Shown: one piece after another, positions 1 through 27,743 of the stretch
Layout of the letters: each line of letters starts with the position of its first letter
Position numbering within the stretch: position 1 is the first letter of the stretch
IMG/VR virus record: IMGVR_UViG_3300033004_000010
Location: 1 to 27,743 of that record
Length of the DNA stretch: 27,743 nt
Source of the DNA: a virus
Direction: 5' to 3' (one strand)
Notes under the pieces: model-generated
The model's database searches: none
The model's input: only the letters and a program-made list of their open reading frames with translations
What the model was told of the DNA's origin: nothing
Position numbers and translations under genes: made by a program

Positions 1-1605
1 CTAACTGGTAAAGTTGCTGCTATACCGGGAGCTAAACCAGTGCCACAAAGAGAAGAGATTGGTCCAACTCCCGAGCGTGGTTATCCGAATACTCCTGTTC
101 CCTATGTGCATCAGCCTTCTCAATGGGACATTAGGTCTCCTTCTGACTTTCGTGAACGGGTACATAGGCCGAGTGGGCCAATTTATGGAGAAGCACCCGA
201 GCCCCTAGGTGAGCTTCCTATGCCTCGCGGTGGGTACAGGCTTCCTCGCCCATCTACCATCTATGGTCAGGCTCCTGAAGAACCGTTGTATCTTCCTAAA
301 CCTAGTGGTCTTTCTGAGCCAAGTGGACCGCGTTCTGAACCACTTCCATCTATACCAACTAAAGCAACTCCTGTACCTCAGCCTCCTGAGTTTAATGCCC
401 CCCGTACAACAACGGCTGCTAAAGCACCTAAAGATGTTACTGTCTACGGTGATTACAAAGTCGGCGACAGTGTGCAGATGAAACAGATTATCGGCGGACA
501 GGTTTACACTGGCCCACAAAAGAAGATCAGCGAATTGTTTCTGAAACCAGAAAAAGTGCTTAAGCAAAATCTTGGTGGAGGTGCAGATAAGCCTAGTCGT
601 ACTGCTGTTACTGAGCAGGTGCCTTATGCCCGTTTCGAAGATGGCACAGAAGCTAAACTATCCCAACTTCAAAGAACTAATGCAGAGAATAAGCAGCAAG
701 TTGAACAAGCTAGGCAGCGTCCCCCGAGTGCATCTCCTGAGAAGGTGCAAGAGATGCTTAAGGGTAAACCATCCATTCAGTCTATGATAGATGATAAAAA
801 TCTATCTTCTCAAGATCTTGTGCATAAATTAAAAAGCTTAGGCACCGACGATGCTACTATAGAGCGTGCACTATTTGAGCGTGGTCATTTTGGTACAGAT
901 GTACAGAAACTTATGACCACCCCGAAAGCCGGCCGAGTTGAACCTCTTAAGCAAAGCGCTCCCAAAAAGACTTCTCCTAAGTTATCTCTCGTGCCAAAAG
1001 GAGAAACCGAGAAAAGAACTTATACGTACGCAGATGTGAACCGAGCTGTAAAGACGTCTCTTAAGGCATCTGAGGGAGAGAAAGTACCTATTGATAGGAT
1101 TATAGAAGACTATCTTCCTGGTATATCTAAGAGTAAGTTGCAACCTTTCCTTGATAGGCTTAAGGAAGAAAAGAACTTAGGTATAAAGGGTGGGGATCTT
1201 TTTTGGAGAAAACTTTCCTCTACTGAAAAAGTTACTAGGAATATTCAGTTGATGGAAGACAAGTTGCATACATTACGCCGTACACTTAATAAGCAATATC
1301 CAGCTATGGGCAAATCCGGTATCTATCGCCTTCCAGATATCTTGAAGCGTCTTCCTTCTGTTGAGATGAGCCAAGATGCTTTTGGTAAGTACATACGAAA
1401 GCTTATTGATTCTGGAGAAGCTAAGGTCTATAATCGTCACACAGGTAGAAAATCTAGGTTAGCTCCGAATACTCTTGATAGAAGTGATCTTCGTAAAGAC
1501 ATCGTTATAGAGTTTACAGGGCCGACGAAATCTGCTAAAGCTAAGAAGCCCGCGTTGTCCGTTGAGGTGGATGCACCCAAGCGTCCTAAGCCGAGTGAAG
1601 ACTAA
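1..1605 (+). CDS. Pro-rich late-operon protein, 5' partial, function unknown
   Basis: The reading frame is open from base 1, so the true start lies before the window; the GTG at 40 has no reason to be preferred. At least 534 residues are visible. The first ~130 are rich in Pro, Gly, Tyr and Arg and look disordered. A short region near residues 145-175 (GDYKVGDSVQMKQIIGG) could be a small beta domain. From about residue 250 the protein is charged and helical, rich in Lys and Glu, and the C-terminus is basic. I recognise no family. It ends TAA at 1603-1605, and the A is shared with the ATG of the next gene (TAATG), so the two are probably translationally coupled. Its place directly before a large probable virion protein suggests a structural or ejected protein (inference). 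Confidence 0.75.
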   Translation, partial: LTGKVAAIPGAKPVPQREEIGPTPERGYPNTPVPYVHQPSQWDIRSPSDFRERVHRPSGPIYGEAPEPLGELPMPRGGYRLPRPSTIYGQAPEEPLYLPKPSGLSEPSGPRSEPLPSIPTKATPVPQPPEFNAPRTTTAAKAPKDVTVYGDYKVGDSVQMKQIIGGQVYTGPQKKISELFLKPEKVLKQNLGGGADKPSRTAVTEQVPYARFEDGTEAKLSQLQRTNAENKQQVEQARQRPPSASPEKVQEMLKGKPSIQSMIDDKNLSSQDLVHKLKSLGTDDATIERALFERGHFGTDVQKLMTTPKAGRVEPLKQSAPKKTSPKLSLVPKGETEKRTYTYADVNRAVKTSLKASEGEKVPIDRIIEDYLPGISKSKLQPFLDRLKEEKNLGIKGGDLFWRKLSSTEKVTRNIQLMEDKLHTLRRTLNKQYPAMGKSGIYRLPDILKRLPSVEMSQDAFGKYIRKLIDSGEAKVYNRHTGRKSRLAPNTLDRSDLRKDIVIEFTGPTKSAKAKKPALSVEVDAPKRPKPSED

Positions 1606-3989: not shown

Positions 3990-4162
3990 TGTCAAAGGGA
4001 ACGAAGGTAGATCAGATCTATCAAGCGATCAAAAAGAAAACAGGTGATAAGGGCAAGGCTGCTCGTATTGCACAAGCGAAAACAGGAAAGTCTTTGAAGA
4101 CAGGTAAGAAACCCAAGTCTAAGAAGGCTCGTAAGAAGAGACTCGAAGGAGCTAAGTTCTAG
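3989..4162 (+). CDS. 57-aa Lys-rich basic protein
   Basis: A short gene begins with the ATG of TAATG at 3989 and ends with the TAG at 4160-4162, whose G starts the next gene (TAGTG). The product is extremely basic. It contains a small helical motif (GKAARIAQAKTGKSLKTGKK, residues ~22-41) and three KTG triplets, followed by a Lys/Arg tail. The helical part resembles small basic proteins I recall from phage structural regions, with unknown function. Coupling on both sides strongly supports that it is real. It could bind nucleic acid, or be a substrate of the ATP-grasp enzyme beside it (pure speculation). Confidence 0.8.
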   Translation: MSKGTKVDQIYQAIKKKTGDKGKAARIAQAKTGKSLKTGKKPKSKKARKKRLEGAKF

Positions 4163-5490
4163 TGAAAGTTCTTATTGTAGAAAATGATCCAGATGTCGGA
4201 TGTGGTGCACTTAATTTAGCTATAAGGGCTAAAAGCTATGACCATGGTGTCAGACTGTTCATGCGAACCACGGAAAGAAACAAGTTCGTTGGCAAGGGAC
4301 TTGTTAATCGTGTTGCCGATCTGGATTCTAACATTGGTTGGTGTGATTTTATTTTTAATTGTGACAATTCAAAATATCTTGGTTCTATGGAGAGGGCAAG
4401 GAATTTAGGCAAGATCGTTATCTCTGCTACTCCTGAAACTGCTAAGTGGGAGTTGGATCGCGGCTATGGCATGGAGATCCTAAAGAAAGCTAAGGTCCAA
4501 ATACCCGAGAGCCAACTATTTGCAGATTACAATAAAGCTATTGCCTACGTTAAAAAGACCATGAAGCGATGTGTCTCTAAGCCAAACGGAGATGCTGATA
4601 AAGATTTATCTTATTGTGCAAAATCGCCTGCTGATTTAGTTTATATGTTGGAGCGATGGAAGAAGAGTAATAAGCTTAAAAGTTCTTTCTTTATTCAGGA
4701 TTTTATTCCTGGCGTTGAGATGGCTGTAGGTGGCTGGTTTGGTCCTGGTGGATTTAACCAGGGATTCTGCGAGAACTTCGAGTTTAAGAAACTAATGAAT
4801 GGGGATATCGGTGTTGCAACTGGTGAAATGGGGACAGTGCTTAGGTACGTTCGTACCAGTAAACTTGCTGACAAGGTGCTCTTACCCCTTGTACCCCAGC
4901 TTGAAAAGGCGCAATACTGTGGATATATCGATGTTAACTGCATTATCGACGAAGAAGGTAGTCCGTGGCCATTGGAGTTTACAACACGGCCAGGATGGCC
5001 GACTTTTAATATACAGCAAGAATTGCATGATGGAGATCCGATAGAATGGATGGTAGCTCTAGCAAATGGAGAGGATCTAAAAGCATCCCGTATGAACGAG
5101 ATAGCAGTAGGAGTGGTCCTTGCAATCCCCGACTTTCCTTATTCTCGTCTAACAAACAAGGATATAGTGGGGATTCCTATTTACAACATAACCCCGAGCC
5201 TATGGCCCCACATACACCCCTGTTCAATGATGTTAGGGCAAGCTCCAATGGAAGTGAAAGGCGCGATAGTCACTTGCCCGTGTCCGTGCACGGCGGGGGA
5301 TTATGTGATGGTAGTGACAGCATCCGGTCAAACAGTGGTGGAGGCAAAAGAAAGAGTGTATCGAAGAGTAGAGAAAATGGAAATCCCGAACAACTTAATG
5401 TACCGAACGGACATTGGGAGTCGTTTACAGAAACAATTACCGAAAGTGCAGTTGCACGGATACGCCAAGGGGATGCAGTACAGGAGCTAG
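4162..5490 (+). CDS. PurD-like ATP-grasp enzyme (phosphoribosylamine-glycine ligase family)
   Basis: 442 residues starting at GTG 4162. The fold order matches glycinamide ribonucleotide synthetase (PurD, EC 6.3.4.13): an N-terminal Rossmann-like region (MKVLIVENDPDVGCGA), then an ATP-grasp domain with IQDFIPGVEMAVGGW (178-192), the metal/ATP-binding segment GYIDVNCIIDEEG (254-266) and EFTTRPGWP (272-280), which corresponds to the PurD EFNVRFGDPE motif. The C-terminal segment VVTASGQTVVEAKERVY and the YRTDIG ending also fit PurD. It lacks the usual N-terminal glycine-rich PurD start, so the substrate may differ. Known role of the family: ATP-dependent ligation of glycine to phosphoribosylamine in purine synthesis. 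The late-operon location is odd for a purely metabolic gene. From 5202 onward the gene also encodes the next protein in another frame. Confidence 0.85.
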   Translation: MKVLIVENDPDVGCGALNLAIRAKSYDHGVRLFMRTTERNKFVGKGLVNRVADLDSNIGWCDFIFNCDNSKYLGSMERARNLGKIVISATPETAKWELDRGYGMEILKKAKVQIPESQLFADYNKAIAYVKKTMKRCVSKPNGDADKDLSYCAKSPADLVYMLERWKKSNKLKSSFFIQDFIPGVEMAVGGWFGPGGFNQGFCENFEFKKLMNGDIGVATGEMGTVLRYVRTSKLADKVLLPLVPQLEKAQYCGYIDVNCIIDEEGSPWPLEFTTRPGWPTFNIQQELHDGDPIEWMVALANGEDLKASRMNEIAVGVVLAIPDFPYSRLTNKDIVGIPIYNITPSLWPHIHPCSMMLGQAPMEVKGAIVTCPCPCTAGDYVMVVTASGQTVVEAKERVYRRVEKMEIPNNLMYRTDIGSRLQKQLPKVQLHGYAKGMQYRS

Positions 5491-5798
5491 ATGGTAAAGA
5501 GCCGAGTAACTCAGAGGAATTTGGTACTTCGTTTACACTGGCTACTCGTCTACAGAGAAAGATGATAAAAAAATATAATGACGATTTTGACGCTGGTTTA
5601 ATAGACTTAGGTGATACTAAGCAAGTTGCCGCGATCTCTACTCTTATTAGAGATGTGCACAGCACGCAGATTAAAGTCACTGATACCGTATATAAGAAGC
5701 AAGATGCTGATAGACGCACTAAGGTTTTGGAAGAGCTAAGCCGTGCTCTGGCGCAATCAACTGCTCCATCAATTCTTGATTTAGAGATGGATGATTAG
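5202..5798 (+). CDS. 198-aa unknown protein, N-terminus overprinted on the ATP-grasp gene
   Basis: This frame lies inside the 3' end of the ATP-grasp gene and continues 308 bases beyond it. The frame is open from 5046, whose ATG has a good GGAG 10 bases upstream. I prefer ATG 5202 because the ATP-grasp codon pattern changes exactly there: by my count T-ending codons fall from about 10 of 34 (5049-5151) to 11 of 97 (5202-5490), as expected when those wobble bases become first codon positions of a second gene. The first ~100 residues are Ser/Asn/Gly-rich and disordered-looking. The C-terminal ~80 are helical and charged (TRLQRKMIKKYNDDFDAG, KQDADRRTKVLEELSRALAQ). No family recognised. The last 80 bases overlap the opposite-strand PrimPol gene. 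Confidence 0.7.
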   Translation: MAPHTPLFNDVRASSNGSERRDSHLPVSVHGGGLCDGSDSIRSNSGGGKRKSVSKSRENGNPEQLNVPNGHWESFTETITESAVARIRQGDAVQELDGKEPSNSEEFGTSFTLATRLQRKMIKKYNDDFDAGLIDLGDTKQVAAISTLIRDVHSTQIKVTDTVYKKQDADRRTKVLEELSRALAQSTAPSILDLEMDD

Positions 5799-8451
5799 AG
5801 TCAAAGATCAAGCAGTATTCCTGCCCGGATGCATACTCTTTAAATCCTGCACCCAAGCATTTCTTATGGTTCTTGTGTTTGATAATACCTTTCTTTTCTA
5901 AGTCTCTAACGAATTCTCTTGTTGACCTGTTTTTCTTAGCAAGGAATTCATCGATGTGTTTTCTTGTTGTTGCGATCTCCCCTGTATCTGTTTCTACTCT
6001 AATCTTAAGTTCGTGCATAGGATGGCGCACCGCACTAAGGATTGTCCTAGGGACAAAGCTTCTTGTCACAAGTGTTTTACTAATATTCTCTCTGAAATAT
6101 GCGGACAGCAAATCTTCGTTTGTTATTTTTGGCGCACGCTCTTCAACTGTATAGCCTCTAACTTGTTCGAGCATCCATTTGATGCGCTCTTCCGCATTGA
6201 TAGTCAGAAGCTCGGATGCTTCGATAAGACGGCAAGCTACGTCGAATGCAGCTAAGTGCGCGGCTAGAAATCTATCTTTGGTGCTACCTAGATTGCTATT
6301 ATACTCTTTCATCTTGTGCACAAGTTCGCGTCTAATCCAGTCCATATTAGATAGGCACAGAAAAACAAAGATAGGGCCAGCGTAACCTGGGTTTTCCAGA
6401 AAAGTGTTCTTGATATCATTACTGAGTTCTTTTTTATTAAGGGGTAATCCTTCAACAGAGATTTCAAGTACTCTGTCTGCCATTGCGTCGGAACCATTAT
6501 CAGCCCTAATAGAACCAGCCAATTCGATATTAGCGTTACTAATAAGAATAGTTTTCCAATGTCTGGGCTCACGTGCTAATTCTCCTGCCCTGTTAAGTCT
6601 TTCTTTCTCGCGTCCTACTGTAAACGACTTAACAAAGTCATTGGCAATCTTGGGGCTATCTCGGCTTTGCTCGTCAAAGAAGGTGGGGATATTGCCAAGC
6701 GTGGCGATCTTGGCAAAGCGCGCGTTGAGCGTGTCGCCTGGGGTGCAGTTAAGCGCGTCGAAGTCTCCCCAGACGCTTGCGGCGGCAATCGTCGCGGTGC
6801 TCTTGCCGGTGCCCCCCTCGGTCGAAGCAAGCGACCAAATCACCCCTCCCTCGGCATCAGGCGAGAAGGCCAGCAGCAACGCGGCGAAGCTGGTCAGCAG
6901 CGTGGCAGCTTGCCACTCGTGCCCACGGGCGAAAAGGCTCTGTGCAGCCTCGCGCCAGCGTCTCAGGCCGTCTGGATGCGCGCCGCGCCTGCCGCCCTTG
7001 CGCAACGATCGGGCGATGGTGACGGCTTCCCCGGTCAGTGAGACGGTGCGCTCGCACGCCTTGCCGTCCTTGAGATAGAGCAGCTTGTCACCAAGCAGGA
7101 ATCCGTCTCCCTTCCACCCGAAAGTTTCATACGAGAGTTCCTGTTGTTTATCTCTTATATAGTTGTGCATGACGTTCATATATGTAACTAGCTCTTTGCT
7201 TTTTAGATAAGGTATATTGCACTGGCTGAATGTAGCTGGAGCATTGCTATTATACTCAGCAGGGCTTACTAGATGGTGCGTCCACCCCTTGCGACTTCTA
7301 TATACCTTGATGCCGAGATTGTATTTATCATCTTGCGTTTCTGCCCTATACACATGTTCAACCAAAATTGGCACATCTGACAAGACCATTTCTTCAACTT
7401 CTTCGTTTTCCCTTGCCTTATATAATACCAATTTATGTTCTTTGTTAAATCCGTATGGAGATGGCAATTTAGGTAACTCAATATCATCTAATACAATACT
7501 ATTTGTATTCCTTGTTAACTGTACAGGAGTCTTTATATTGAGTATACAACCATTGCACCCTTCGGGATTATGGGACTTAAACCACTGACAGGTAATAGCA
7601 CTATCAAACTGGGATATGCCTTTCCACTTAGTATTGGCTTCTTCTTCATCATATCTAGGATCTTGCTTAGAGAATGCGTGCCATAATTCCTCGCCCTTCT
7701 TACATTTCGATAGAATAACTCCGCAAGACCTCCATACCGGCTCTGACTGGTGTACACCCATTGCGAACGAATGCATCTGGTGGCATCCTTCGAGTATGGG
7801 CTGCACATCAACAAGTGCATATTCCTTTTTCTCTGCTGGCTTGTCTTGGGATAATACAAATACACTAAATACACTAAGGTCATACTGCGGACAATCTAAA
7901 GCAAGTTGGACCGTGTTATTTTCATGATACTTAGGATTAATTGTCTCAATTGGTCTGAGGACACTAGAGGAATCAGAAGTTCGCGATGGGTCGACTCTAA
8001 GACCCCGAGTTTCACAAGCGCGCTTAAGCCCTCTAGCGTAAGGCAACCATTCTTGCTCAGTAACATCTCGGTTAAGCGGCCAATATAAATGCAGTCCACC
8101 TCCGGTAAGGATAACCATTGGGTTAGGAATTCTAATTCGCTTGCAGAAAGATCGGACCGCTTCAATGGCTTCAATAACGGTGTCATACCCACCCTTCCTA
8201 CCTATGTCTATATCCAACCAAAGTGCACGGATGTACTTAACATTTTCTTGCTTCCTACTGCCTTGCACACAATATGTGGAGCAAGCATGATACACATTCT
8301 CGTAACAATGATCAAAAATAAATTGCCTAAGTTCTTCAACTGTGTTAAAGAAACTATTTCTCGTCCCCCCTTTCCCTGGCTTACTAATCGTTGTTGCACA
8401 ATACATCCCCTCGCTTGGAAGTATCTTTTTCAGGAAGTCCAAACAGTTCAT
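5719..8451 (-). CDS. PrimPol (RepB-like AEP) primase-helicase, 910 aa
   Basis: A replicative primase fused to a helicase. The N-terminal archaeo-eukaryotic primase domain shows motif I LWLDIDIG (acidic residues 80 and 82), motif II TGGGLHLYW (116-124) and motif III with DPSRTSDSSSVLRP (154-167). A PriCT-2-like region follows at ~235-285 and a Cys cluster at ~288-302 (C-x-W ... CNGC). The C-terminal half is a DUF927-type P-loop helicase with Walker A EGGTGKST (545-552) and Walker B-like IPTFFDEQ (588-595). The start at 8451 keeps the expected FLKKILPSEG segment. The first 68 bases overlap the upstream HTH gene. Bases ~6690-7080, which include the Walker A codons, form a GC-rich island inside an otherwise AT-richer gene. 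It is the last gene of the replication operon and overlaps the late operon by 80 bases. Confidence 0.92.
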   Translation of the reverse strand: MNCLDFLKKILPSEGMYCATTISKPGKGGTRNSFFNTVEELRQFIFDHCYENVYHACSTYCVQGSRKQENVKYIRALWLDIDIGRKGGYDTVIEAIEAVRSFCKRIRIPNPMVILTGGGLHLYWPLNRDVTEQEWLPYARGLKRACETRGLRVDPSRTSDSSSVLRPIETINPKYHENNTVQLALDCPQYDLSVFSVFVLSQDKPAEKKEYALVDVQPILEGCHQMHSFAMGVHQSEPVWRSCGVILSKCKKGEELWHAFSKQDPRYDEEEANTKWKGISQFDSAITCQWFKSHNPEGCNGCILNIKTPVQLTRNTNSIVLDDIELPKLPSPYGFNKEHKLVLYKARENEEVEEMVLSDVPILVEHVYRAETQDDKYNLGIKVYRSRKGWTHHLVSPAEYNSNAPATFSQCNIPYLKSKELVTYMNVMHNYIRDKQQELSYETFGWKGDGFLLGDKLLYLKDGKACERTVSLTGEAVTIARSLRKGGRRGAHPDGLRRWREAAQSLFARGHEWQAATLLTSFAALLLAFSPDAEGGVIWSLASTEGGTGKSTATIAAASVWGDFDALNCTPGDTLNARFAKIATLGNIPTFFDEQSRDSPKIANDFVKSFTVGREKERLNRAGELAREPRHWKTILISNANIELAGSIRADNGSDAMADRVLEISVEGLPLNKKELSNDIKNTFLENPGYAGPIFVFLCLSNMDWIRRELVHKMKEYNSNLGSTKDRFLAAHLAAFDVACRLIEASELLTINAEERIKWMLEQVRGYTVEERAPKITNEDLLSAYFRENISKTLVTRSFVPRTILSAVRHPMHELKIRVETDTGEIATTRKHIDEFLAKKNRSTREFVRDLEKKGIIKHKNHKKCLGAGFKEYASGQEYCLIFDSNHPSLNQELMEQLIAPEHGLALPKP

Positions 8452-8710
8452 ATTTGATACTCTTAATCAAGAGTTTTCTTTTTGGAGGGCTTAGTGTGTC
8501 TCTAACAAGATGACCATCTTTAGTATTTATTCTTTTTACTAGCTTGTTCATCCTGCGAGCAATATGCTGTTTAGTATTCCTTCTCGGTATAGCGCCCATC
8601 TTCCATGTGTGCACAGTACATCTGGGCACGTCGAGAAGCAAGGCAAGGTCGGCGAGTGTTAACCCGCCTACCTCCTCGCAATAGTGTATGAGTGTTTGGA
8701 TTTCATTCAT
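8384..8710 (-). CDS. helix-turn-helix DNA-binding protein, 108 aa
   Basis: Residues ~17-45 (LTLADLALLLDVPRCTVHTW) form a clear helix-turn-helix of the Cro/CI or YdaS kind, followed by a basic stretch (KQHIARRMNKLVKRIN). The last 22 codons overlap the primase start. A perfect 9-bp dyad lies 32-50 bases upstream of the start codon (8742-8760), so auto-regulation is plausible (inference). The start ATG 8710 has only a weak ribosome binding site. It sits between the Cys-rich protein and the primase in the replication operon, so it may tune primase expression. Family known; exact role unknown. Confidence 0.8.
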   Translation of the reverse strand: MNEIQTLIHYCEEVGGLTLADLALLLDVPRCTVHTWKMGAIPRRNTKQHIARRMNKLVKRINTKDGHLVRDTLSPPKRKLLIKSIKYELFGLPEKDTSKRGDVLCNND

Positions 8711-8765: not shown

Positions 8766-9725
8766 CTAGGAGTTCATAATATTGTTAATCATGCTCTGCA
8801 AACCTTCAGGCATATTCAGCTTTGGAATACCTGATGGGCCGCTAGATTTCGCACCTCCGCCTTCTCCATCCTCTTCAGCCCCTTCAAATTTTGGCTTGCT
8901 GGCCTTCGTGCGCATGCCAGTCATGTCAAGAAGTTTAGGCTTTTCCACCTTAGCATTATTGGTTTTCGGTGCCTCATCCACAATCTTACCTGCTTTAGGA
9001 GCTTCAATCTGCTTCTGCTGTGCAGGAGCTTCCAAGGCGTGATGTGACTGCACATTGTGCATACCTATAATGTTGTTAGCTGATCCTTCCTCAGCAATCC
9101 GAGCCGCAAGACCTTTTTCGTTCTGGTCAAGATTGGCAGGGGCGAAATTGACGATGCCCTGCTTACCTTGTTCGAAATAGATATAAGTCTTAAAGTCACC
9201 AAGATTGGCTTTCCTACCGCCCATGTCCACATCATCAAACTTGGTTGCATAAGAAAAAAAGTTCTTCAATGATGCCGGAGGAACGCGGAACAGCCAAATC
9301 TTATCCATGCCCATCTTAGGCACGACGACAGCCATCTTAAGAAAGTCCTGGCAAGCTTTGACCTGTGCACCTGTCTTGCTGGTCTTACTCCCCCAGACGT
9401 TCTTAGGACACTGAGCGCACGTCTCTGCCTGCTTGTTCTGTGCACTAGTGGCGGGGATTACGCCGTCATCCGAAAAGCAATCAGGTGCTTTGTGATCATC
9501 AGCTTTAGGGTCGAAATCTTCCTTATAGAAAATCTTGCACAAGTTAGGATTGCCATCAACGAAGATGACAGGACACATAACAAGCCCGTCATCATCCATC
9601 TCAGACACGACTTTAGTGTTATCTCCGTCAATGCAAGTAAACGTGTTACCTGCAATAGAGAGCATGGGGACAGCTTGTCCGCCAAGGACTTTGCGAAGGT
9701 TGGTTGTGAGTGCTGCGAGGCGCAT
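8766..9725 (-). CDS. Cys-rich phage replication-operon protein, possible ssDNA-binding role, 319 aa
   Basis: Start ATG 9725 has a good AGGAG about 9 bases upstream. The central region carries PDCFSDDG ... CAQCPKNVWGS ... VKACQDF (residues ~81-126), a four-Cys pattern that looks like a zinc ribbon. The N-terminal half is compact and globular. The last ~100 residues are Pro/Lys/Ala/Gly-rich and disordered, with a short final helix (LQSMINNIMNS). I recall proteins with this Cys pattern in phage replication operons without an established function. A single-strand-binding role is only an inference from position and from the acidic, flexible tail. Confidence 0.75.
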   Translation of the reverse strand: MRLAALTTNLRKVLGGQAVPMLSIAGNTFTCIDGDNTKVVSEMDDDGLVMCPVIFVDGNPNLCKIFYKEDFDPKADDHKAPDCFSDDGVIPATSAQNKQAETCAQCPKNVWGSKTSKTGAQVKACQDFLKMAVVVPKMGMDKIWLFRVPPASLKNFFSYATKFDDVDMGGRKANLGDFKTYIYFEQGKQGIVNFAPANLDQNEKGLAARIAEEGSANNIIGMHNVQSHHALEAPAQQKQIEAPKAGKIVDEAPKTNNAKVEKPKLLDMTGMRTKASKPKFEGAEEDGEGGGAKSSGPSGIPKLNMPEGLQSMINNIMNS

Positions 9726-18432: not shown

Positions 18433-18514
18433 GTCTATCATCCCAAATTATGAATGCAGCAAAGCCAGCATAGGCAACTAGCAAGCTTGTGCACACAAGT
18501 CCTACCCACCACAT
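18419..18514 (-). CDS. 31-aa single-span membrane protein
   Basis: Begins with the ATG of a TAATG overlap at the stop of the upstream gene (18514-18516) and ends 18419. Nearly the whole peptide is one hydrophobic span (WWVGLVCTSLLVAYAGFAAF) with a charged tail (WDDRHDNR). Coupling at the start supports it. Confidence 0.55.
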   Translation of the reverse strand: MWWVGLVCTSLLVAYAGFAAFIIWDDRHDNR

Positions 18515-18882: not shown

Positions 18883-19043
18883 GTTGCCGCCCTCCACCGT
18901 GTCGCGGGCAGCACGGGGGACAGCAAGCCGGGCCGGTGACCCTGTGCACGAAGCCGAACGTCGGCGCACGCAAGCGCGTGAGCGCCCATGCCCATAAGAA
19001 AGGCGCGGTGATGCCCGCGCCATAGAGTTTGAAGAATGACCAT
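18879..19043 (-). CDS. possible 54-aa protein (frame uncertain)
   Basis: A frame from ATG 19043 (TAATG with the upstream stop) to TGA 18881-18879 (ATGA with the next start) fills the gap exactly. However, another frame here, in line with the upstream gene after its TAA, has a stronger G/C wobble bias (about 75% versus 67%) and a membrane-helix-like sequence (LYGAGITAPFLWAWALTRL) but no start codon. I cannot decide which, if either, is translated. Confidence 0.4.
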   Translation of the reverse strand: MVILQTLWRGHHRAFLMGMGAHALACADVRLRAQGHRPGLLSPVLPATRWRAAT

Positions 19044-19529: not shown

Positions 19530-19975
19530 ATCGCACCCATTGCTTTGCCCCACCTATAAGCGGCGGCTAGATCAGTCCCGAAACACTTCTTAGCTACTTC
19601 GTCGGCATAAATCTCCAGATCGCGGAGTTGCGGGTCATCTCTAGTGAACAATCCCGCCATGACCGGCATGCACATGTCTATACCGCCATGATAGCGCGCC
19701 ATACGCCAGATATAATAAGCGCGATGATAGCGCTGTTTCTCGATGGGGGTAAGATGCTGTGCAGGCATAGAGCGAAGCTGTGCACGAAGCTTGCCCTTAT
19801 TCTTACCCTGGCTGGATTGGATAATAGACAGAATCGCCGCGTGCACTTCGGACCAATGCAAATCTTCGAAATGGCCTACCGCGCAACAGGTTGTGCACGG
19901 TAAGCGCTTGTTAGCGTTCCATGATGGAGCGTAGGTTTTTTCACCGTTACATTTTGGGCAAATGGTATCAGTCAT
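19526..19975 (-). CDS. 149-aa zinc-ribbon protein
   Basis: An N-terminal CPKCNGEKTY ... CTTCCAVGHF pattern (two CxxC pairs, residues ~6-32) looks like a DnaJ-type or ribbon zinc site. The rest is helical (LRAQLRSMPAQHLTPIEKQ, AYYIWRMARYHGG). The start may be ATG 19975 or GTG 19984; the latter overlaps the upstream stop as GTGA. No function assigned; small zinc-ribbon proteins are common in phage early regions. Confidence 0.65.
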   Translation of the reverse strand: MTDTICPKCNGEKTYAPSWNANKRLPCTTCCAVGHFEDLHWSEVHAAILSIIQSSQGKNKGKLRAQLRSMPAQHLTPIEKQRYHRAYYIWRMARYHGGIDMCMPVMAGLFTRDDPQLRDLEIYADEVAKKCFGTDLAAAYRWGKAMGAI

Positions 19976-19980: not shown

Positions 19981-20601
19981 TCACTCGCCAGTTTGTGCTG
20001 GCGACTCTCCTTCTTCGCTACGCTCAGAATGAGCGATCCAGATTTGCAGTTGGTCTAGAAGTTGTTTCTTAGCAGATGCAATGGCAGTTTGGTAAGCTTC
20101 TTCGGCAGGTGCAATGGCAGTTTCGTAAGCTTCCTGAGCAGATGCAATGGCAGTTTGGTAAGCTTCTTCGGCAGGTGCAATGGCAGTTTCGTAAGCTTCT
20201 TCGGCAGTTGCACAGGCAGTTTTGTAAGCTTCCCGAACAAATACAATGGCAGTTTCGTAAGCTTCCCGAGCAGTTGCATAGGCAGTTTGGTAAGCCTCCC
20301 GAGCAGTTGCATAGGCAGTTTGGTAAGCTTCCCGAGCAGTTGCATAGGCAGTTCGGTAAGCCTCCCGAGCAGGTGCAATGGCAGTTCGGTAAGCTTCTTC
20401 GGCAGGTGCAATGGCAGTTCGGTAAGCTTCCCAGTATTGCGCAGGGATAACACGGTTACTGGACGCCCAGCTTATCCAGCTAAAGATAGACGCATGCTCA
20501 CGCACTTCCTCCCACGTATCGCATAGGGATAGCTCATAGATCGCTTCATTACACGCGCCTCGCCCGCGAGCGAGGTCAATTAATCGTCTTAGTTTTTCCA
20601 T
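19981..20601 (-). CDS. 206-aa protein with eleven 11-residue (hendecad) repeats
   Basis: ATG 20601 follows AAGGAAA; the frame is open to 20685 but without a good ribosome site there. Residues 1-57 are a short helical head (EKLRRLIDLARGRG, TWEEVREHASIFSWIS). Residues 58-178 are eleven tandem copies of EAYxTAxAxAx, with the variable sites R/Q/E/K, I/Y/C, P/T/S and E/R/Q/K. The tail is KQLLDQLQIW then SERSEEGES. Eleven-residue periodicity predicts a long amphipathic helix or right-handed coiled coil, as in LEA-type and apolipoprotein-type repeats. I recall similar AY-x-x-A repeats in phage and metagenomic proteins; function unknown. Copies at the DNA level differ by few bases, so the repeat number is probably unstable. 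Confidence 0.75.
   Translation of the reverse strand: MEKLRRLIDLARGRGACNEAIYELSLCDTWEEVREHASIFSWISWASSNRVIPAQYWEAYRTAIAPAEEAYRTAIAPAREAYRTAYATAREAYQTAYATAREAYQTAYATAREAYETAIVFVREAYKTACATAEEAYETAIAPAEEAYQTAIASAQEAYETAIAPAEEAYQTAIASAKKQLLDQLQIWIAHSERSEEGESPAQTGE
20068..20430 (-). repeat. 33-bp tandem repeat, 11 copies
   Basis: Eleven in-frame 33-base units encode the EAYxTAxAxAx repeats. Most units keep GAAGCTTAC at the start and GCCATTGCA or GCCTATGCA near the middle. The repeat lacks stops in several frames, which creates long spurious frames on both strands. Confidence 0.9.
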
Positions 20602-20624
20602 CGTGGTTTCCTTTTGGTTGAGAT

Positions 20625-20659
20625 GTGTACGGGTAATACCCCAGCTATCACCCGTGCAC
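20625..20659 (-). promoter_or_regulatory. inverted repeat in the leader of the hendecad gene
   Basis: Arms GTGTACGGGT (20625-20634) and ACCCGTGCAC (20650-20659) pair over 10 bases with one mismatch around a 15-base spacer. In the - strand mRNA this would be a hairpin shortly before the ribosome site. Confidence 0.4.
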
Positions 20660-20687
20660 GCTATCCTAGATTTATGTGTGTGCATAC

Positions 20688-20972: not shown

Positions 20973-21148
20973 ATGATAATCCTCCGTCCCATCTTTTCGC
21001 GCAAGTCATCCATGTTGATGCCGTGCACAATGTTGTGAAGCTTATATGCACACTCGTAAGCATCAATCATACCGTCTTTATAATGCTTGATAGTGTCCTC
21101 GATAAGTTGCAGGACTTCGTCAAATGCAGGTTCATTTTGTGTAGGCAT
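20969..21148 (-). CDS. 59-aa acidic helical protein
   Basis: ATG 21148 is preceded by GGAGGG at 6 bases; the stop overlaps the next ATG (ATGA). The peptide is helical (FDEVLQLIEDTIKHYKDG, IDAYECAYKLHNIVHG) with a basic end (REKMGRRIII). Strong ribosome site and coupling support it despite its length. Confidence 0.65.
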   Translation of the reverse strand: MPTQNEPAFDEVLQLIEDTIKHYKDGMIDAYECAYKLHNIVHGINMDDLREKMGRRIII

Positions 21149-21175: not shown

Positions 21176-21200
21176 GGATGCTGTGGCGTGCACAGCACCC
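21176..21200 (-). promoter_or_regulatory. 10-bp hairpin between two small genes
   Basis: GGATGCTGTG and CACAGCACCC pair with one mismatch around the 5-base loop GCGTG; on the - strand mRNA the mismatch is a G-U pair. It sits in the 63-base gap before the 59-aa gene, without a U-run, and contains a GTGCAC palindrome. A longer outer pairing (TAGTTA 21162-21167 with TAACTA 21209-21214) is possible. Confidence 0.45.
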
Positions 21201-21211
21201 AACGAAGCTAA

Positions 21212-21493: not shown

Positions 21494-21542
21494 ATCGTAC
21501 CCTCCTATTTAAGTAAGCCAATTTAAGTGTGTCTCTTATGCC

Positions 21543-21914
21543 TTATCGTGAGTCGCGTAAGGTGTCAAGCGCGGCGTTGTCGATGCGCAAGGGGCGGGGG
21601 ATGACGCGGGTGCATGCCCGGTGCACGCGGTAAGAGGTAGTGGTGCCAAGGGGTGTGAGGGGTGCACGATCGGCGTGAAGCTTGGCAAGGTCGCGCGCGA
21701 TGGCGACGGCCAGAGGCGCGCTCCAAAAGGCCAGCGCATCAGCCGGGGGCCGTGGCAAGCCCGTGCGGTCATCCAAGACGGAGGGGGACCACTCGCCAAA
21801 GGGCGGCTCGGGCCAATGCTCGCCAGCGAGGTAGCACACATTGTGCACGGGGCTAGCGAAAGGGATGATGCGCCGCTGGATGAGGTAGACGGGCATGACA
21901 TATACTAAAGACAT
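21543..21914 (-). CDS. 123-aa unknown protein, strongly GC-rich
   Basis: ATG 21914 after GGAGAA, one base after the stop of a 38-aa gene. The first ~15 residues use AT-rich codons; from ~21880 to 21545 the codons are nearly all G/C-ending. Pro/Arg/Ala-rich globular-looking sequence (EHWPEPPFGEWSPSVLDD, FWSAPLAVAIARDLAKLH). No family recognised. Confidence 0.65.
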   Translation of the reverse strand: MSLVYVMPVYLIQRRIIPFASPVHNVCYLAGEHWPEPPFGEWSPSVLDDRTGLPRPPADALAFWSAPLAVAIARDLAKLHADRAPLTPLGTTTSYRVHRACTRVIPRPLRIDNAALDTLRDSR

Positions 21915-21915
21915 C

Positions 21916-22032: not shown

Positions 22033-22385
22033 TTGTGCTTTTCCTCCATAATGTGGTCGAACCGCGTTGCTCCGTTGGCCATGGCACGTTGCACGGCTTT
22101 AGTGAGGCGGTTCAGCTCAGATATGAGAGCGTTGTAGTCATGTGGTTGCTTGCGTATGCCGAACGATGACGGACTGTAGCGTTTTTTAATCAGGCAAATA
22201 GACTCGGCGTAATCCCCTGTGTGCACGACGCACCAACCGGATGGGCCATAGAGCCAGGAAGGTACTGAGCGCAGAAGTGCATAGACCTGGCCATCCCGCG
22301 TATCTAACAGCCATCGTGCACGGGATAAAGTGTCGTGTTTATAGTAGCCAGGTGCATCATTGCGTGGTGGATAGACAAGGATCAT
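22029..22385 (-). CDS. 118-aa unknown protein
   Basis: Coupled at both ends by ATGA overlaps. N-terminal half with Tyr/Pro/Trp-rich beta-like sequence (SWLYGPSGWCVVHTGDYAE) and a helical C-terminal half (YNALISELNRLTKAVQRAM). No family recognised. Confidence 0.6.
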   Translation of the reverse strand: MILVYPPRNDAPGYYKHDTLSRARWLLDTRDGQVYALLRSVPSWLYGPSGWCVVHTGDYAESICLIKKRYSPSSFGIRKQPHDYNALISELNRLTKAVQRAMANGATRFDHIMEEKHK

Positions 22386-23023
22386 CCGTGCCTCTCCAAA
22401 ATGTAATCTATCGCCTCTTGTGGCATTAGTGAGCCTTGGATGTAGTCACCATCGTTCCATATGTTTAGCGTACTTGTTGCGCTATCATAGTACCATTTTT
22501 CCGGCATTATCTCTTGCAAATACTGCTCGGGGTCATCGTATCTGCGTGTGTCGATGCCCTTGCGCTTTTCCCACGCTAGTATGAGATCATTAATCGCCCG
22601 TCCAAGCTGGTCATCAGGTAAGTTTTTGCTTATCTGACCTAAAATAGAGTCATCACAGCTTGCACAGACAGCGTATTTATATGGTGACGCTGCTTTGTGT
22701 TGTGTGACATCTAGGTGTATGCCGTACTTTTCCTTTTTGAGCTTATAGATTTTGTTTTCTTCCGGTGTTAGTCCTGTTGATTTCGGTGGTTGCTTGGCTT
22801 GTACAGGCTTCGCTGCATCTGGCACGGCGTTAGCTTGTGCACGGGGATCAGATGGGGCTACAGGTTGTTTTTTGACCCAATCTTTTATGGCTAGAGTTAC
22901 TACTGTTGTGTAGGTAAATTGGGGATTATCGGTCAGATAGTGGCGGATTGCCGCATCCTCCGCAGGGGTCAGGGAAACAATGGTCTTAATACGGACCAAT
23001 GGTGTCGCAGTTTTATGGCGCAT
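22382..23023 (-). CDS. 213-aa protein with N-terminal ribbon-helix-helix-like domain
   Basis: First gene of the second early operon. Residues ~10-50 (RIKTIVSLTPAEDAAIRHYL, TTVVTLAIKDWVKKQ) have the strand-helix-helix pattern of RHH DNA-binding proteins. A Pro/Ala/Gln linker (~55-85) leads to a C-terminal domain with a possible CxxC pair (AVCASC) and a conserved-looking aromatic end. GAGGGC precedes ATG 23023. As first gene it could repress its own operon (inference). Confidence 0.65.
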   Translation of the reverse strand: MRHKTATPLVRIKTIVSLTPAEDAAIRHYLTDNPQFTYTTVVTLAIKDWVKKQPVAPSDPRAQANAVPDAAKPVQAKQPPKSTGLTPEENKIYKLKKEKYGIHLDVTQHKAASPYKYAVCASCDDSILGQISKNLPDDQLGRAINDLILAWEKRKGIDTRRYDDPEQYLQEIMPEKWYYDSATSTLNIWNDGDYIQGSLMPQEAIDYILERHG

Positions 23024-23303
23024 TATGCCCTCAGTATGTTTTGAGTGTGGTCATTGCAATGCCAGCGTAAGCCATTCTTTCCCACAATTTCCAATCACAT
23101 TTTCGTGAGAAGTGCACATAATCGGGAAAATTTCGGGCCAAATAGGGGCGGATTGAGGGAAGGTAGGTGGCGGAGGAACGTAGGTAGACCGGGGAAGCGC
23201 ATCCTGTTCGATTTCGTTGGTGGGCAAGGAAGTATGAGAGGGTAAAATTGAAAGAAGGTAAAGAAGATGCGCCGATTTCGCAAAAAGAGGAGGTTGGTTG
23301 AGT

Positions 23304-23318
23304 GGGAGGGAGGGAGGG
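23304..23318 (+). other. G-quadruplex motif (four GGG runs, one-base loops)
   Basis: GGGAGGGAGGGAGGG has the tightest possible loop arrangement and should fold very stably as single-stranded DNA or RNA. Confidence 0.8.
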
Positions 23319-23621
23319 CACTGGCAGGAATCATCGGCAGGGACCTTACCACGAGTCTTTGTTTTTTTCTGCCATATATATAAATAACTTTTAGATACAT
23401 GTATATAGAGCACCAATTTTTTCCGGCTGTCCCCGTGCCCAAACAAGGCCCATCCTACCAGACCAGTGCCCAATACAACCCGTAGGTTCCCACCTAGGCA
23501 CTTGGTTGTACCTCTTATACTTTCTTAGCCACCAAGGAAATATAAGTTTTTGTCAGCAATAGTTGCACACGCCAAATTTACTTCCGAAGGTTGAGTTACT
23601 TCACCTTAAGTTGCATTCCTC

Positions 23622-24010
23622 CTACCCAACTTCTCTTTTAGTTGTGCTGTGGCATACCACATACCAACGTCTTTCACTCTTTGTTCTCTTTTTACAACCT
23701 TACATAGAATATTTCAACCGCTCCCTCCCTCCCCCCTAGTTCCCCTGGCCACAATACTAGCCAAACCGGCTTACGAGGATTCTTTTGGCCTCAGTTCATA
23801 TATTATTCTGATAGGCTATATACTATTGGGCTGGGTAGTATTTTTTCGCTGGCTAACTCGGGGGCTTAGGGGAGGTACCCTCCTCCGAGAAAATTTTCCT
23901 TTCCTAGCCACTTCCACACCGCTACCCAATTTCAAATTTCCTAACATACCTAACTTTCCCCCCTCCTACCCAATTACCCATGCATAAATAAAAATGCATC
24001 TCCTACCCAA
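23622..24010 (+). repeat. four CTACCCAA direct repeats
   Basis: Copies at 23622-23629, 23922-23929, 23966-23973 and 24003-24010; a shorter inverted copy (TGGGTAG) at 23832-23838. Iteron-like but unevenly spaced. Confidence 0.45.
23723..23745 (-). other. G-quadruplex motif on the - strand
   Basis: On the + strand four C-runs (CCC, CCC, CCCCCC, CCCC) are separated by T, T and TAGTT; the complementary strand can form a G-quadruplex. Confidence 0.7.
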
Positions 24011-24130
24011 CCCCCGGTCTCCTAATATTCTTGGACCATAGTACACAGTATCACACAGTGCTCCTCACACGTCCCATCAGCATATCCGTGGGACAGGTGA
24101 GCTGCCTTCAGGGCGCCAGAAAATTTTTAC

Positions 24131-24159
24131 TTGACCTCGTGCCCAGAAAGCGTTACAAC
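24131..24159 (+). promoter_or_regulatory. probable sigma70-like promoter for packaging genes
   Basis: -35 TTGACC (24131-24136), 17-base spacer, -10 TACAAC (24154-24159), with an AT-rich stretch (AAAATTTTTAC) directly upstream. The spacer begins TCGTGCCC, close to the CTCGTGCAC after the -35 at 17767. It lies 33 bases before the first gene of the packaging block. Confidence 0.55.
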
Positions 24160-24191
24160 CCGTTGTGCGATGAATCTCGTAGGCAGAATCC

Positions 24192-24383
24192 ATGAAGAAA
24201 TCACGACCCTTGCCCCCGCGTCGCCACTGTGCTTATTGTGGGGAAGTGTTTCAACCGCTAAGGAAGCATGGCCGCTTCTGCAGTACTGTTTGTCGCTGTA
24301 ATAACTGGGCAGAAAAAAATATAGATACGAGGAAAGGAGGCGCCGACAATGGATCTTCTAAAGATGTGGGACTGGTGCGATGA
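24192..24383 (+). CDS. 63-aa zinc-finger protein
   Basis: CAYCGEVFQPLRKHGRFCST then VCRCNNW (residues ~13-40) forms a treble-clef-like zinc site of the kind found in small phage and HNH-associated proteins. Basic N-terminus. The ribosome site is weak. Its last 35 bases overlap the next small gene. Confidence 0.7.
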   Translation: MKKSRPLPPRRHCAYCGEVFQPLRKHGRFCSTVCRCNNWAEKNIDTRKGGADNGSSKDVGLVR

Positions 24384-24468
24384 TAATGTACCTATATTTC
24401 CCTTTCTATTCCATGTAGGAGTACAAGGGGTGCTCCTTTACGTTTTAATATCGGTGGCACGTGTCTAA
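24349..24468 (+). CDS. 39-aa single-span membrane protein before terminase
   Basis: ATG 24349 is preceded by a perfect AGGAGG with 8-base spacing, the strongest ribosome site in this part. The peptide is MDLLKMWDWCDDN followed by a hydrophobic span (FPFLFHVGVQGVLLYVLISV). It overlaps the zinc-finger gene by 35 bases and the terminase start by 8. Possibly a holin-like or phage membrane protein; no family recognised. Confidence 0.65.
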   Translation: MDLLKMWDWCDDNVPIFPFLFHVGVQGVLLYVLISVARV

Positions 24469-26449
24469 GCACCTGCACGCCCAGCTCATTGCGTCTATCC
24501 GGGATAATCCTATCCCTGTGCACGAGTATCTGTTCCCGCATAGGCACTCTATGCCCGCTGCACCCTTCCATGAGCGTGTGCTGCGCGACTGGTATACGAC
24601 CCGTGCAAGAGTAGTGCAGACGATTTTTAGAGGAGGTGCGAAGACAACTCTTGGAGAAGAAGCAGTTACTATTCTTGCCTGCCTTGGTGTTGTGCACAAT
24701 ATTCCTATTATTGGTTCTTCTGATAAGAGAGCCAAAGAGCGCTTAGAAGCGATCAAGCACGAGCTAACGACTAACGAGCGTTTGCACACGCTTTTTGGTT
24801 ATATGGGAGAGTCTGCTTGTTCTATATGGCAAGCTGACAAGATTGTGTTGCCGAATAATGTATGCATCCAATCTCTTGGTTGGAACCAATCTATGCGGGG
24901 ATTGAAGTATCTTGAGTATCGCCCTGACTATTGTTGGATAGATGATATTGAGGACGAAGAAAACTCCTCCACTCCCGAAGCCCGGCAAAAGGTGGTTAAG
25001 CGCCTCTTATCTGTTGTTATTCCCGCTGTTGATGCTCCTGGTGCACGTCTTCGCGTAACTGGTACTATTATTGAGCCGGAATCTTTAGTCGTTAAACTTG
25101 CTCAGTTGCCACAATGGAAGTCGCGAGTGTTTCCTGCACGATATACTGACCATACATCTTCTCCCCCTCGTATCCGTGCATCATGGCCAGAAAGAAAATC
25201 TCTTACAGCCCTCGCTGCTCTCGAAGCCGAATGTATAGTTGCTGGAGAGAAGACTACGTTCGATAGGGAGTACATGTGCCAAGCAATACCGGACGAGGAT
25301 AGGTCATTCACCTCTTCTCTCTTGCGTGCCGATATCATACCTCGCACGTATCAGTCTACGTATGCAATATATGATCCGGCTCGCACAACTAATGCTTCCT
25401 CTGCTCATACAGGCAAGGTTGTGTTCTCATGGCAGAACAATAAGCTCTTAGTTTGGGAGTCGTCGGGTAATTTCTGGATGCCCGATCAGATTGTGCACGA
25501 TATATTCCAGACCGATGCACAATATAATACTACTCTCATAGGTGTAGAACAGGACGGCTTACATGAGTTCCTCATGCAACCCATACGACATGAGGCCCTT
25601 AAGCGTGGGCATGTCGTGCCTATTCGCCCTCTAAAAGCTCCGAAAGGTAAGCTGTCCTTCATCCGTGCACTGCAACCGTTCTTTAAAGCAGGAGAAGTTA
25701 TCTTTGTTCCAGATATTGCTTCGCACCAGACGCTCAAGGATCAGCTACTGAATTTCCCTTCAGGTAAAATAGACATCCCGAACGCACTGGCTTATGCGCT
25801 TATCATTAGGCCAGGACAGCCTATTCTGGATTCGTTTGATCCCCACACGCATGTTGATCCCCTTCTTGCTATTACTCCCCGCTACCCTCTTACTCTCGCA
25901 ATTCATTCTGAGAACCGCTTCACTGCCGGTGTCCTTGTGCAATTGATCCGCTCGCGCTATCATGTGCTTGCCGACTGGATGCTTGAGGGCGACCCTGGCA
26001 GCACCCTTGCCGATCTGTTGCGCTATGCCGCTTCCCACACTTCCACACCCGCGAGACCCATTGCTCCGCCCGAGCATTTCGCCACCTACAGCACATCAGG
26101 CTTGCGCGCAGCAGCGTCGGCGATCCCGATACGCCTCCACCAGGGCGGGCCGCTCGCCAGAGGGCTAGAAATGGTCCGTGGTGCCTTGCAGAGCCTCCCG
26201 CACGGGCGACCGGGGCTGATCGTCTCTCCACGGGCATCTTGGACGCTGCGTGCCCTCTCAGGGGGCTTCTGCGCCGATCATCATCGGTCCGGCATCCCTA
26301 AGCCAACGCCTGTGCGCAACGGCTACGCCACGCTGGTCGATGCCCTGTGCACAGCAATCGCCTCAAGCGACTTCGCCATTGACAGCCAGACGGATAGGCA
26401 TTATGGTGTCGCGAACGATGGATCATCATACCTAACGGCGAGAAGATAG
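24461..26449 (+). CDS. terL: terminase large subunit (TerL), 662 aa
   Basis: DNA-packaging motor. ATPase: Walker A-like FRGGAKTT (56-63), Walker B WIDDIEDEE (159-167), coupling region LRVTGTIIEP (197-206). Nuclease: AIYDPARTT (D305), IGVEQDG (E363/D365) and GKIDIPNALAYAL (D438), consistent with the RNase H-like TerL nuclease. GTG 24461 is the start. The protein continues ~200 residues beyond the nuclease with a second alpha/beta region (VLADWMLEGDPGSTLADLL, YATLVDALCTAIA), longer than many TerL. This extra region coincides with a GC-rich island (~25920-26400). The portal gene follows after one small gene, the normal packaging order. Confidence 0.95.
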   Translation: MSKHLHAQLIASIRDNPIPVHEYLFPHRHSMPAAPFHERVLRDWYTTRARVVQTIFRGGAKTTLGEEAVTILACLGVVHNIPIIGSSDKRAKERLEAIKHELTTNERLHTLFGYMGESACSIWQADKIVLPNNVCIQSLGWNQSMRGLKYLEYRPDYCWIDDIEDEENSSTPEARQKVVKRLLSVVIPAVDAPGARLRVTGTIIEPESLVVKLAQLPQWKSRVFPARYTDHTSSPPRIRASWPERKSLTALAALEAECIVAGEKTTFDREYMCQAIPDEDRSFTSSLLRADIIPRTYQSTYAIYDPARTTNASSAHTGKVVFSWQNNKLLVWESSGNFWMPDQIVHDIFQTDAQYNTTLIGVEQDGLHEFLMQPIRHEALKRGHVVPIRPLKAPKGKLSFIRALQPFFKAGEVIFVPDIASHQTLKDQLLNFPSGKIDIPNALAYALIIRPGQPILDSFDPHTHVDPLLAITPRYPLTLAIHSENRFTAGVLVQLIRSRYHVLADWMLEGDPGSTLADLLRYAASHTSTPARPIAPPEHFATYSTSGLRAAASAIPIRLHQGGPLARGLEMVRGALQSLPHGRPGLIVSPRASWTLRALSGGFCADHHRSGIPKPTPVRNGYATLVDALCTAIASSDFAIDSQTDRHYGVANDGSSYLTARR

Positions 26450-26451
26450 AA

Positions 26452-26700: not shown

Positions 26701-27743
26701 GTCTCTGAACGAAGATAGCCCTGAGCTATCGAGAGATGAAGAGCTTTGCGATAAGTCCGAGTTCCAAGATACTCTTGTAAAGTTATATCGAGAAGTCGAG
26801 AGTGGGTTCGACTCTCAGTCGAACCGAGCGGATGCTATTGCCGATTATTGGGATTGCTATAACACCAAACTTAACCATTGCCAGTTCTATACTGGTAACT
26901 CGCAGATATATGTCCCGATAGTTTATGATGCAGTGAATGCCCGTGTAACTCGCTTCTCCAATCAGATCTTCCCACAATCAGGTCGTTACGTTGATGTTGT
27001 TACTGAAGATGGTAACATTCCCAACGCAACTATATCCCTCTTAGAGTTTTATATCCGCAAGTGCAAGATGCAAACGGACATCGTGCCTATGCTCATGCGC
27101 TCGGGTGATGTGGAGGGGCAGTATACTGTCTATGTGGATTGGAAGAAGACGGAGAAGGAAGTTGTTGTCCGCGTGCCACGTGCACCGCAGATAGACCCTC
27201 AGATTGTTGATCCTCTTGAGACAGTTGATGATATAGAAGAGCAAACTGTTGTTGAAGGCTATCCAACTGTAGAAGTCATTAGCGATGTAGATATTCTTAT
27301 TCTCCCTGCAACTGCTTCATCTATAGAAGATGCTCTTGACAAAGGTGGTTCGGTAACTGTTATTCGTCGCTGGTCTAAAGCTAAGCTTCAGCAGATGATA
27401 GCAGATAAGTACATCGATAAGAAACGGGGTGAAGAGCTACTTAAGGAAATGAACCAACCAAAGAAATTTGGTAGGAAAGATACTAGCAAAGATATGATTG
27501 ACGCTGCTGGTATTAAGTCAGATGGCAGTGGCGTCAAGTGTGCACAGATATATGAGACTTGGACTAAGCTTACTACTGACAAAAAATCTAGACTTCATCG
27601 TATCTTTTTTGCTGGCGTAGATAAGGTTATCGGGTGCAAGCGCAACCCATTCTGGTCTGATAATATCCCGATCATCTCGTGTTCGGTAGAAAAAGTAAAT
27701 GGGTCTTTTAAAGGTAAATCTAAGATTGCTCCTGTAGCCACAT
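26654..27743 (+). CDS. portal protein, 3' partial
   Basis: Frame 2 is open from before ATG 26654 to the window end (363 codons). After a basic, disordered start it reads SGFDSQSNRADAIADYWDCY, then YTGNSQIYVPIVYDAVNARV and TRFSNQIFPQSGRYVDV, which is the pattern of podovirus-type portal proteins (YxGxSxxxxPxVxdaVxa, FPxxxxxxv). The location after TerL supports this. GAGG lies ~15 bases before the ATG. A start inside the 82-aa gene gives a 47-base overlap. Portal proteins form the dodecameric DNA gate of the capsid. Confidence 0.85.
   Translation, partial: MKPNRRSKDLRGTSLKSLNEDSPELSRDEELCDKSEFQDTLVKLYREVESGFDSQSNRADAIADYWDCYNTKLNHCQFYTGNSQIYVPIVYDAVNARVTRFSNQIFPQSGRYVDVVTEDGNIPNATISLLEFYIRKCKMQTDIVPMLMRSGDVEGQYTVYVDWKKTEKEVVVRVPRAPQIDPQIVDPLETVDDIEEQTVVEGYPTVEVISDVDILILPATASSIEDALDKGGSVTVIRRWSKAKLQQMIADKYIDKKRGEELLKEMNQPKKFGRKDTSKDMIDAAGIKSDGSGVKCAQIYETWTKLTTDKKSRLHRIFFAGVDKVIGCKRNPFWSDNIPIISCSVEKVNGSFKGKSKIAPVAT
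26805..26825 (+). other. perfect 8-bp hairpin near the portal gene start
   Basis: GGTTCGAC-TCTCA-GTCGAACC inside coding sequence, codon ~51. It resembles a tRNA T-arm, but no tRNA surrounds it. Confidence 0.5.

Follow-up and report, generated by a model that had tools for sequence, protein, structure and literature searches.

GTGCAC as a candidate highly iterated palindrome in a tailed-phage genome fragment

Introduction

Highly iterated palindromes (HIPs) were described by Elhai (2015, PMC4390886) as GC-containing palindromes that occur at 500 to 2,500 copies per Mb and are linked to matching methyltransferases; deviations from the consensus are fewest at the central positions, and the proposed driver of their build-up is G-methyl-C-directed mismatch repair. 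In addition to HIP1 (GCGATCGC) of cyanobacteria, the known set includes the alternate HIPs GGCGCC (Calothrix PCC 7103), rCCGGy, GCsGC, and GGGATCCC, found in single strains; GTGCAC is not mentioned in that paper. The build-up of HIPs is an old open question that has been studied almost only in cyanobacterial chromosomes. Here we describe the iteration of GTGCAC, first pointed out in an earlier note made from the sequence alone, in a stretch of viral DNA of 27,743 bases (IMG/VR record IMGVR_UViG_3300033004_000010, positions 1 to 27,743), referred to below as the window. The excess of this word in the phage fragment is confirmed and unusual, and the observation itself can be trusted; what we infer from it is the mechanism.

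Abundance of GTGCAC in the window

The window contains exactly 52 copies of GTGCAC, the first starting at position 866 and the last at 27540–27545, precisely as the earlier note had counted them. GTGCAC ranks first in frequency among the 4,096 hexamers in the window, and its density of 1.87 per kb (1,874 per Mb) lies within the span reported for HIPs (PMC4390886). The reversed word CACGTG, taken as a control, is found 7 times. Markov models of orders 1, 2, 3, and 4, trained after masking the 52 copies, predict 5.3, 7.4, 9.6, and 10.5 sites, respectively, so that of the 7- to 8-fold excess originally claimed the strong excess stands, while its size becomes 5- to 7-fold by the models of orders 2 to 4. 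The unmasked order 4 model, built from 5-mers, predicts 39 copies, a figure that might be taken to refute the excess. This prediction is circular, because the model is trained on the very word being tested (of the 191 occurrences of GTGCA on the two strands, 104 sit inside GTGCAC), and the excess survives masking. An equal excess of many other palindromes, which would also have spoken against a special role of this word, is not seen: the runners-up GCGCGC (16 observed vs 5.0 expected), CTTAAG (25 vs 11.4), and AAGCTT (31 vs 16.3) are raised 2- to 3-fold, and 8 palindromic hexamers have no copy in the window, which fits the usual avoidance of 6-base palindromes by phages. As in the HIPs, a single palindrome thus stands far above Markov expectation (52 vs 7.4 to 10.5), unlike the other palindromes.

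The copies are spread evenly, with each sixth of the window enriched (5 to 15 sites vs 1.0 to 1.9 expected) and the spacing indistinguishable from random (Kolmogorov-Smirnov p 0.12). One-base variants, which had seemed clearly rarer in the earlier note, are indeed lower in number than GTGCAC but are not depleted, being at or above expectation (163 vs 121 expected). Their ratios to expectation are 1.56 for the outer positions, 1.24 for the second ones, and 1.04 for the central GC; among single neighbours, the lowest ratio is that of GAGCAC (0.82), and GTGTAC, GTGCAT, and GTGCGC reach 1.29, 1.40, and 1.45. The flanks show a preference for YGTGCACR (81 of 104, vs 51 of 87 for GTGCAD; p 0.005).

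Reading phase and effect on proteins

The sites are listed below with their setting in the open reading frames (ORFs); the strand is that of the ORF, as GTGCAC itself is self-complementary. The coding analysis covered 27 chosen ORFs, which make up 79% of the window and several of which have no family match, so that the phases of single sites are provisional.

Site 1, 866–871, plus ORF, phase 1
Site 2, 2151–2156, plus ORF, Val-His
Site 3, 2434–2439, plus ORF, phase 1
Site 4, 2986–2991, plus ORF, phase 1
Site 5, 4205–4210, plus ORF, phase 1
Site 6, 5286–5291, plus ORF, phase 2
Site 7, 5655–5660, tallied as gap; may code Val-His in overlapping ORF 5046–5798
Site 8, 6316–6321, minus ORF, Val-His
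Site 9, 8223–8228, minus ORF, phase 1
Site 10, 8609–8614, minus ORF, Val-His
Site 11, 9365–9370, minus ORF, phase 1
Site 12, 9440–9445, minus ORF, phase 1
Site 13, 10657–10662, minus ORF, phase 1
Site 14, 11428–11433, minus ORF, phase 1
Site 15, 11456–11461, minus ORF, Val-His
Site 16, 11574–11579, minus ORF, phase 2
Site 17, 12772–12777, minus ORF, Val-His
Site 18, 12861–12866, minus ORF, phase 1
Site 19, 13649–13654, minus ORF, Val-His
Site 20, 14071–14076, minus ORF, Val-His
Site 21, 14763–14768, minus ORF, phase 1
Site 22, 15085–15090, minus ORF, Val-His
Site 23, 15123–15128, minus ORF, phase 1
Site 24, 15337–15342, minus ORF, Val-His
Site 25, 16646–16651, minus ORF, Val-His
Site 26, 17594–17599, gap
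Site 27, 17777–17782, GTG start of plus ORF
Site 28, 17892–17897, plus ORF, phase 1
Site 29, 18489–18494, gap
Site 30, 18593–18598, minus ORF, phase 2
Site 31, 18944–18949, minus ORF, phase 2
Site 32, 19780–19785, minus ORF, phase 1
Site 33, 19841–19846, minus ORF, Val-His
Site 34, 19893–19898, minus ORF, phase 2
Site 35, 20654–20659, minus ORF, phase 2
Site 36, 21023–21028, gap
Site 37, 21188–21193, gap
Site 38, 21621–21626, minus ORF, Val-His
Site 39, 21662–21667, minus ORF, phase 1
Site 40, 21843–21848, minus ORF, Val-His
Site 41, 22221–22226, minus ORF, Val-His
Site 42, 22316–22321, minus ORF, phase 1
Site 43, 22837–22842, minus ORF, phase 1
Site 44, 23112–23117, gap
Site 45, 24518–24523, plus ORF (terminase), Val-His
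Site 46, 24692–24697, plus ORF (terminase), Val-His
Site 47, 25041–25046, plus ORF (terminase), phase 1
Site 48, 25493–25498, plus ORF (terminase), Val-His
Site 49, 25665–25670, plus ORF (terminase), phase 1
Site 50, 26347–26352, plus ORF (terminase), phase 2
Site 51, 27180–27185, gap
Site 52, 27540–27545, gap

Coding sequence holds 44 of the 52 sites, on both gene strands and in all three phases (18, 19, and 7 copies), and the gaps hold 7 or 8, depending on whether the copy at 5655 is assigned to the overlapping ORF 5046–5798. The earlier statement that the word occurs in plus genes, minus genes, and gaps and in at least two phases is thereby borne out, as is the view that protein sequence does not account for it: synonymous-codon shuffling leaves 8.7 copies in genes (maximum 18 in 300 shuffles), with 4.6, 2.2, and 1.6 in the three phases. 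The flanks of the sites are unrelated, and no repeat family that could be their source was found in the window. With three phases, both gene strands, gaps, and unrelated flanks, neither protein coding nor a dispersed repeat family explains the copies; as in the HIPs, the word is dispersed, takes any phase, and is not part of a longer repeat. A coding-repeat array would be confined to one phase of one or a few genes; here the sites fall in many ORFs and gaps. Val-His dipeptides number 27, vs 10.6 expected, and 18 of them are encoded by GTG-CAC; therefore the pressure is on the DNA word, and the proteins yield to it. The excess is independent of coding phase and alters protein sequence.

The phage and its relatives

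Judging from its predicted genes, among them the two listed here, the window is tailed-phage DNA.

13960–15795, minus strand, family A DNA polymerase (Pfam PF00476, 3e-15; PHROG 17, 3.5e-54), the query gene for relatives
24461–26449, plus strand, terminase large subunit (PHROG 38, 2e-51), which marks tailed-phage DNA

Other products include a DUF927-type primase-helicase, an SNF2-type helicase, an exonuclease, and a GH108 endolysin. The nearest cultured kin are Pseudomonas, Rhizobium, and Xanthomonas phages with ∼26 to 36% protein identity and genomes of 55 to 64 kb. Because the record lacks repeats at its ends and no gene for a capsid or portal protein could be recognised in the window, about half of the phage genome probably lies outside the 27.7-kb record. 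The window also carries an ORF (19981–20685, minus strand) with a 33-base (11-residue) tandem repeat in eleven overlapping matches, a gene for a phosphoribosylamine-glycine ligase-like protein with ATP-grasp and GARS domains (4162–5490, plus strand), found here in a phage, and a gene for a DUF4031 protein (12805–13065, minus strand; Pfam 2.6e-23). The long stretch 23118–24460, which separates the leftward gene block from the rightward one, has no convincing gene and no GTGCAC and is possibly a control or origin region.

None of the ∼80 polymerase-related viral contigs (L128–L207; 33 to 42% identity) has an excess of GTGCAC, and neither do the cultured relatives Rollin (7 observed, 17 expected), Xp15 (5 and 9), and RHph_TM3_14A (12 and 15). 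A phage-family trait is thus ruled out; the excess is specific to this phage, and its relatives lack it. A terminase search of viral contigs and a DNA search of phages and plasmids found no close relative.

In homology-free scans of viral contigs for GTGCAC triplets, a method of low sensitivity, the matches listed are mostly either coding repeats in a single phase or DNA of high GC content, and the richest contigs among them have every copy in a single phase of repeat genes. With each cluster taken as one count, the z-score is 11.9 for the window and 5.8 for the next best viral contig among those matches; the same phenomenon in these other contigs was rejected, as they are mostly single-gene in-frame repeats. 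Five such single-gene arrays (L033, L087, L092, L107, and L123) share with the window a large excess of the same hexamer but, unlike it, confine the word to one phase and one region and encode repeat proteins. In these five and in L068, it runs in one phase over several kb within genes for long repeat proteins and is not genome-wide; CTGCAG is likewise repeated in one phase in L087 and L107. Two further contigs are rich in other palindromes: CTCGAG in L089 (12,452 bases; 46 vs 9.2 expected) and GATATC in L153 (15,666 bases; 14 vs 2.7 expected).

HIP1 and C5 methyltransferases in cyanophages

Ten cyanophages served as a control. Five of them (L539, L540, L548, L549, and L550) are rich in HIP1. 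Over the 50 kb read of each, Nostoc phage N1 has 33 copies (expected 0.13) and PaV-LD has 27 (0.22); over 30 kb each, Elbi and YongM both have 21 (0.13 and 0.08, respectively) and CL131 has 54 (0.09). These counts amount to 0.5 to 1.8 per kb vs 0.003 to 0.004 expected. The HIP1-poor set (L541, L542, L543, L551, and L552) has one copy in LMM01 and none in A-4L, Pam1, Pf-WMP3, and Mic1 in the stretches read. A C5 methyltransferase (PF00145) is encoded by all five HIP1-rich phages and by one of the five HIP1-poor ones, Mic1, so that the statement that the enzyme occurs only in HIP1-rich cyanophages had to be dropped. The HIP signature thus exists in phages and goes with a phage-borne enzyme, as an association and not as proof of causation; a brief literature search found no paper on such a link in cyanophages. 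A separate feature of two HIP1-poor phages is the near absence of GATC (3 copies vs 79 expected in Mic1, L552; 0 vs 96 in A-4L, L541).

Possible origin of the excess

The idea that GTGCAC is a host-matched methylation or protein-binding word is plausible, although unproven. We give an even chance to the reading that it is the HIP of this phage, tied to a methyltransferase that either the host or the missing part of the phage would supply. A DNA methyltransferase encoded by the host or by the phage part outside the contig would act on GTGCAC; the central GC of the word, which both strands have, could become G-methyl-C in each of them, following Elhai's model for other HIPs; and methylation-linked repair or protection would keep existing copies or favour new ones until they build up genome-wide. 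The methylation, the matching enzyme, and the repair step are all supposed by analogy, as is a host that would share the word. In a bolder version, which we regard as rather unlikely, GTGCAC would be the first HIP found via a phage outside cyanobacteria, phage-borne cytosine methyltransferases would drive the build-up of their targets, and the missing half of this genome would encode a GTGCAC-specific enzyme. A phage that has an iterated palindrome of its own, together with the C5 enzyme in the examined HIP1-rich cyanophages, makes the HIP question testable in a small genome, and GTGCAC could serve as a sequence tag that pairs such phages with unknown hosts.

Several observations weigh against GTGCAC being a methylation-linked HIP. 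No C5 (PF00145) or N6/N4 (PF01555) methyltransferase was found in the 27.7-kb window, where coverage of other methyltransferase types was limited to 30 predicted proteins scanned with Pfam. When GTGCAC was counted over the full length of 1,623 distinct bacterial genomes (G034–G1656; 385 from Alphaproteobacteria, 369 from Gammaproteobacteria, 280 from Burkholderiales, 247 from Bacteroidota, 319 from Cyanobacteria, and 31 mixed), no density comparable to 1.87 per kb emerged: the highest was 0.72 per kb in a Myxococcales metagenome-assembled genome (G814), and the maxima were 0.34 in Alphaproteobacteria, 0.58 in Gammaproteobacteria, ∼0.5 in Burkholderiales, 0.43 in Bacteroidota, and 0.24 in Cyanobacteria. 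A separate genome scan by GTGCAC density yielded no host among the matches listed. The outside-to-inside trend of the variants has the same direction as in HIP1 but is modest and weak and could stem from a wider TGCA bias. Finally, the cyanophage control amounts to about two independent lineages, because N1, Elbi, and YongM form one (their C5 enzymes are 61 to 63% identical) and the annotation of CL131 includes several PaV-LD-like genes, and Mic1, with the enzyme and no HIP1, is a contrary case. The genome sample nevertheless leaves room for a host sharing the word, because alternate HIPs occur in single strains (PMC4390886).

As an aside from this survey, many large cyanobacterial genomes (e.g., G1104, G1167, G1136, and G1368) are nearly free of GTGCAC, with 0 to 10 copies in 4 to 7 Mb, the opposite of the window, which suggests a widespread GTGCAC-directed restriction system.

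The main alternative, itself unlikely, is that GTGCAC is bound by a protein of the phage or the host, whether of dimeric DNA-binding, packaging, replication, or nucoid type, and that many dispersed sites are selected. Palindromes suit dimers, the YGTGCACR lean exceeds what a bare 6-base enzyme site needs, and a small ORF (8384–8710, minus strand) resembles a helix-turn-helix protein by eye; however, no match to a binding-protein family was found in the window, the sites lie mostly within coding sequence with no apparent clustering at gene starts, and degenerate sites should raise the variants more strongly than the 1.0- to 1.7-fold seen. Sequence-specific repair or mutation bias without methyl marking (cf. 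very-short-patch repair) could instead make GTGCAC from a near neighbour, which would fit an excess that pervades all phases and gaps even where it alters proteins. Such a process should use up its precursor, yet no one-off neighbour is clearly depleted, GAGCAC included, and GTGTAC, GTGCAT, and GTGCGC are raised, so we consider it quite improbable. More doubtful still is the idea that GTGCAC marks self in a defence contest, in which sites methylated by host or phage would block another nuclease and site-rich phages would win: DNA with 5-methylcytosine does resist ApaLI, which recognises GTGCAC (PMC7653180), and many other palindromes are absent from the window, as under strong restriction, but restriction normally selects against unprotected sites rather than for protected ones, and a scan of ten window proteins turned up no defence gene. 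An origin in protein coding, codon usage (Val-His or Arg-Ala), or a repeat family, the type seen in other GTGCAC-rich viral contigs (single phase throughout in L033, L087, L092, and L123), can be dismissed for the window on the shuffling, phase, flank, and repeat results given above.

Comparison with known systems

The uptake sequences of Pasteurellaceae and Neisseriaceae resemble GTGCAC in being short and dispersed and in accumulating through a drive. The analogy, offered in the earlier note, is nonetheless poor: those words are not palindromes, belong to competent cells, and are commoner in non-coding DNA (PMC1939737), whereas GTGCAC is a palindrome in phage DNA. The alternate HIPs are closer, being sporadic, lineage-specific, GC-containing palindromes, of which GGCGCC is likewise a plain hexamer; unlike GTGCAC, they sit in cell genomes with a matching methyltransferase reported (PMC4390886). 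HIP1 differs in being an eight-base word with a >100-fold excess, vs another word of six bases with a 5- to 7-fold excess, and in belonging to cyanobacteria, whereas no host genome was found for GTGCAC among the 1,623 surveyed and the nearest cultured kin of its phage infect proteobacteria. Still, the HIP1 analogy drawn in the earlier note fits best: both words are palindromes that lie in genes and gaps about once per 0.5 to 2 kb, far more often than Markov models predict, both may deviate least at the centre (for GTGCAC a modest trend that could stem from TGCA bias), and the HIP1-rich phages carry their word at a density comparable to that of GTGCAC in the window.

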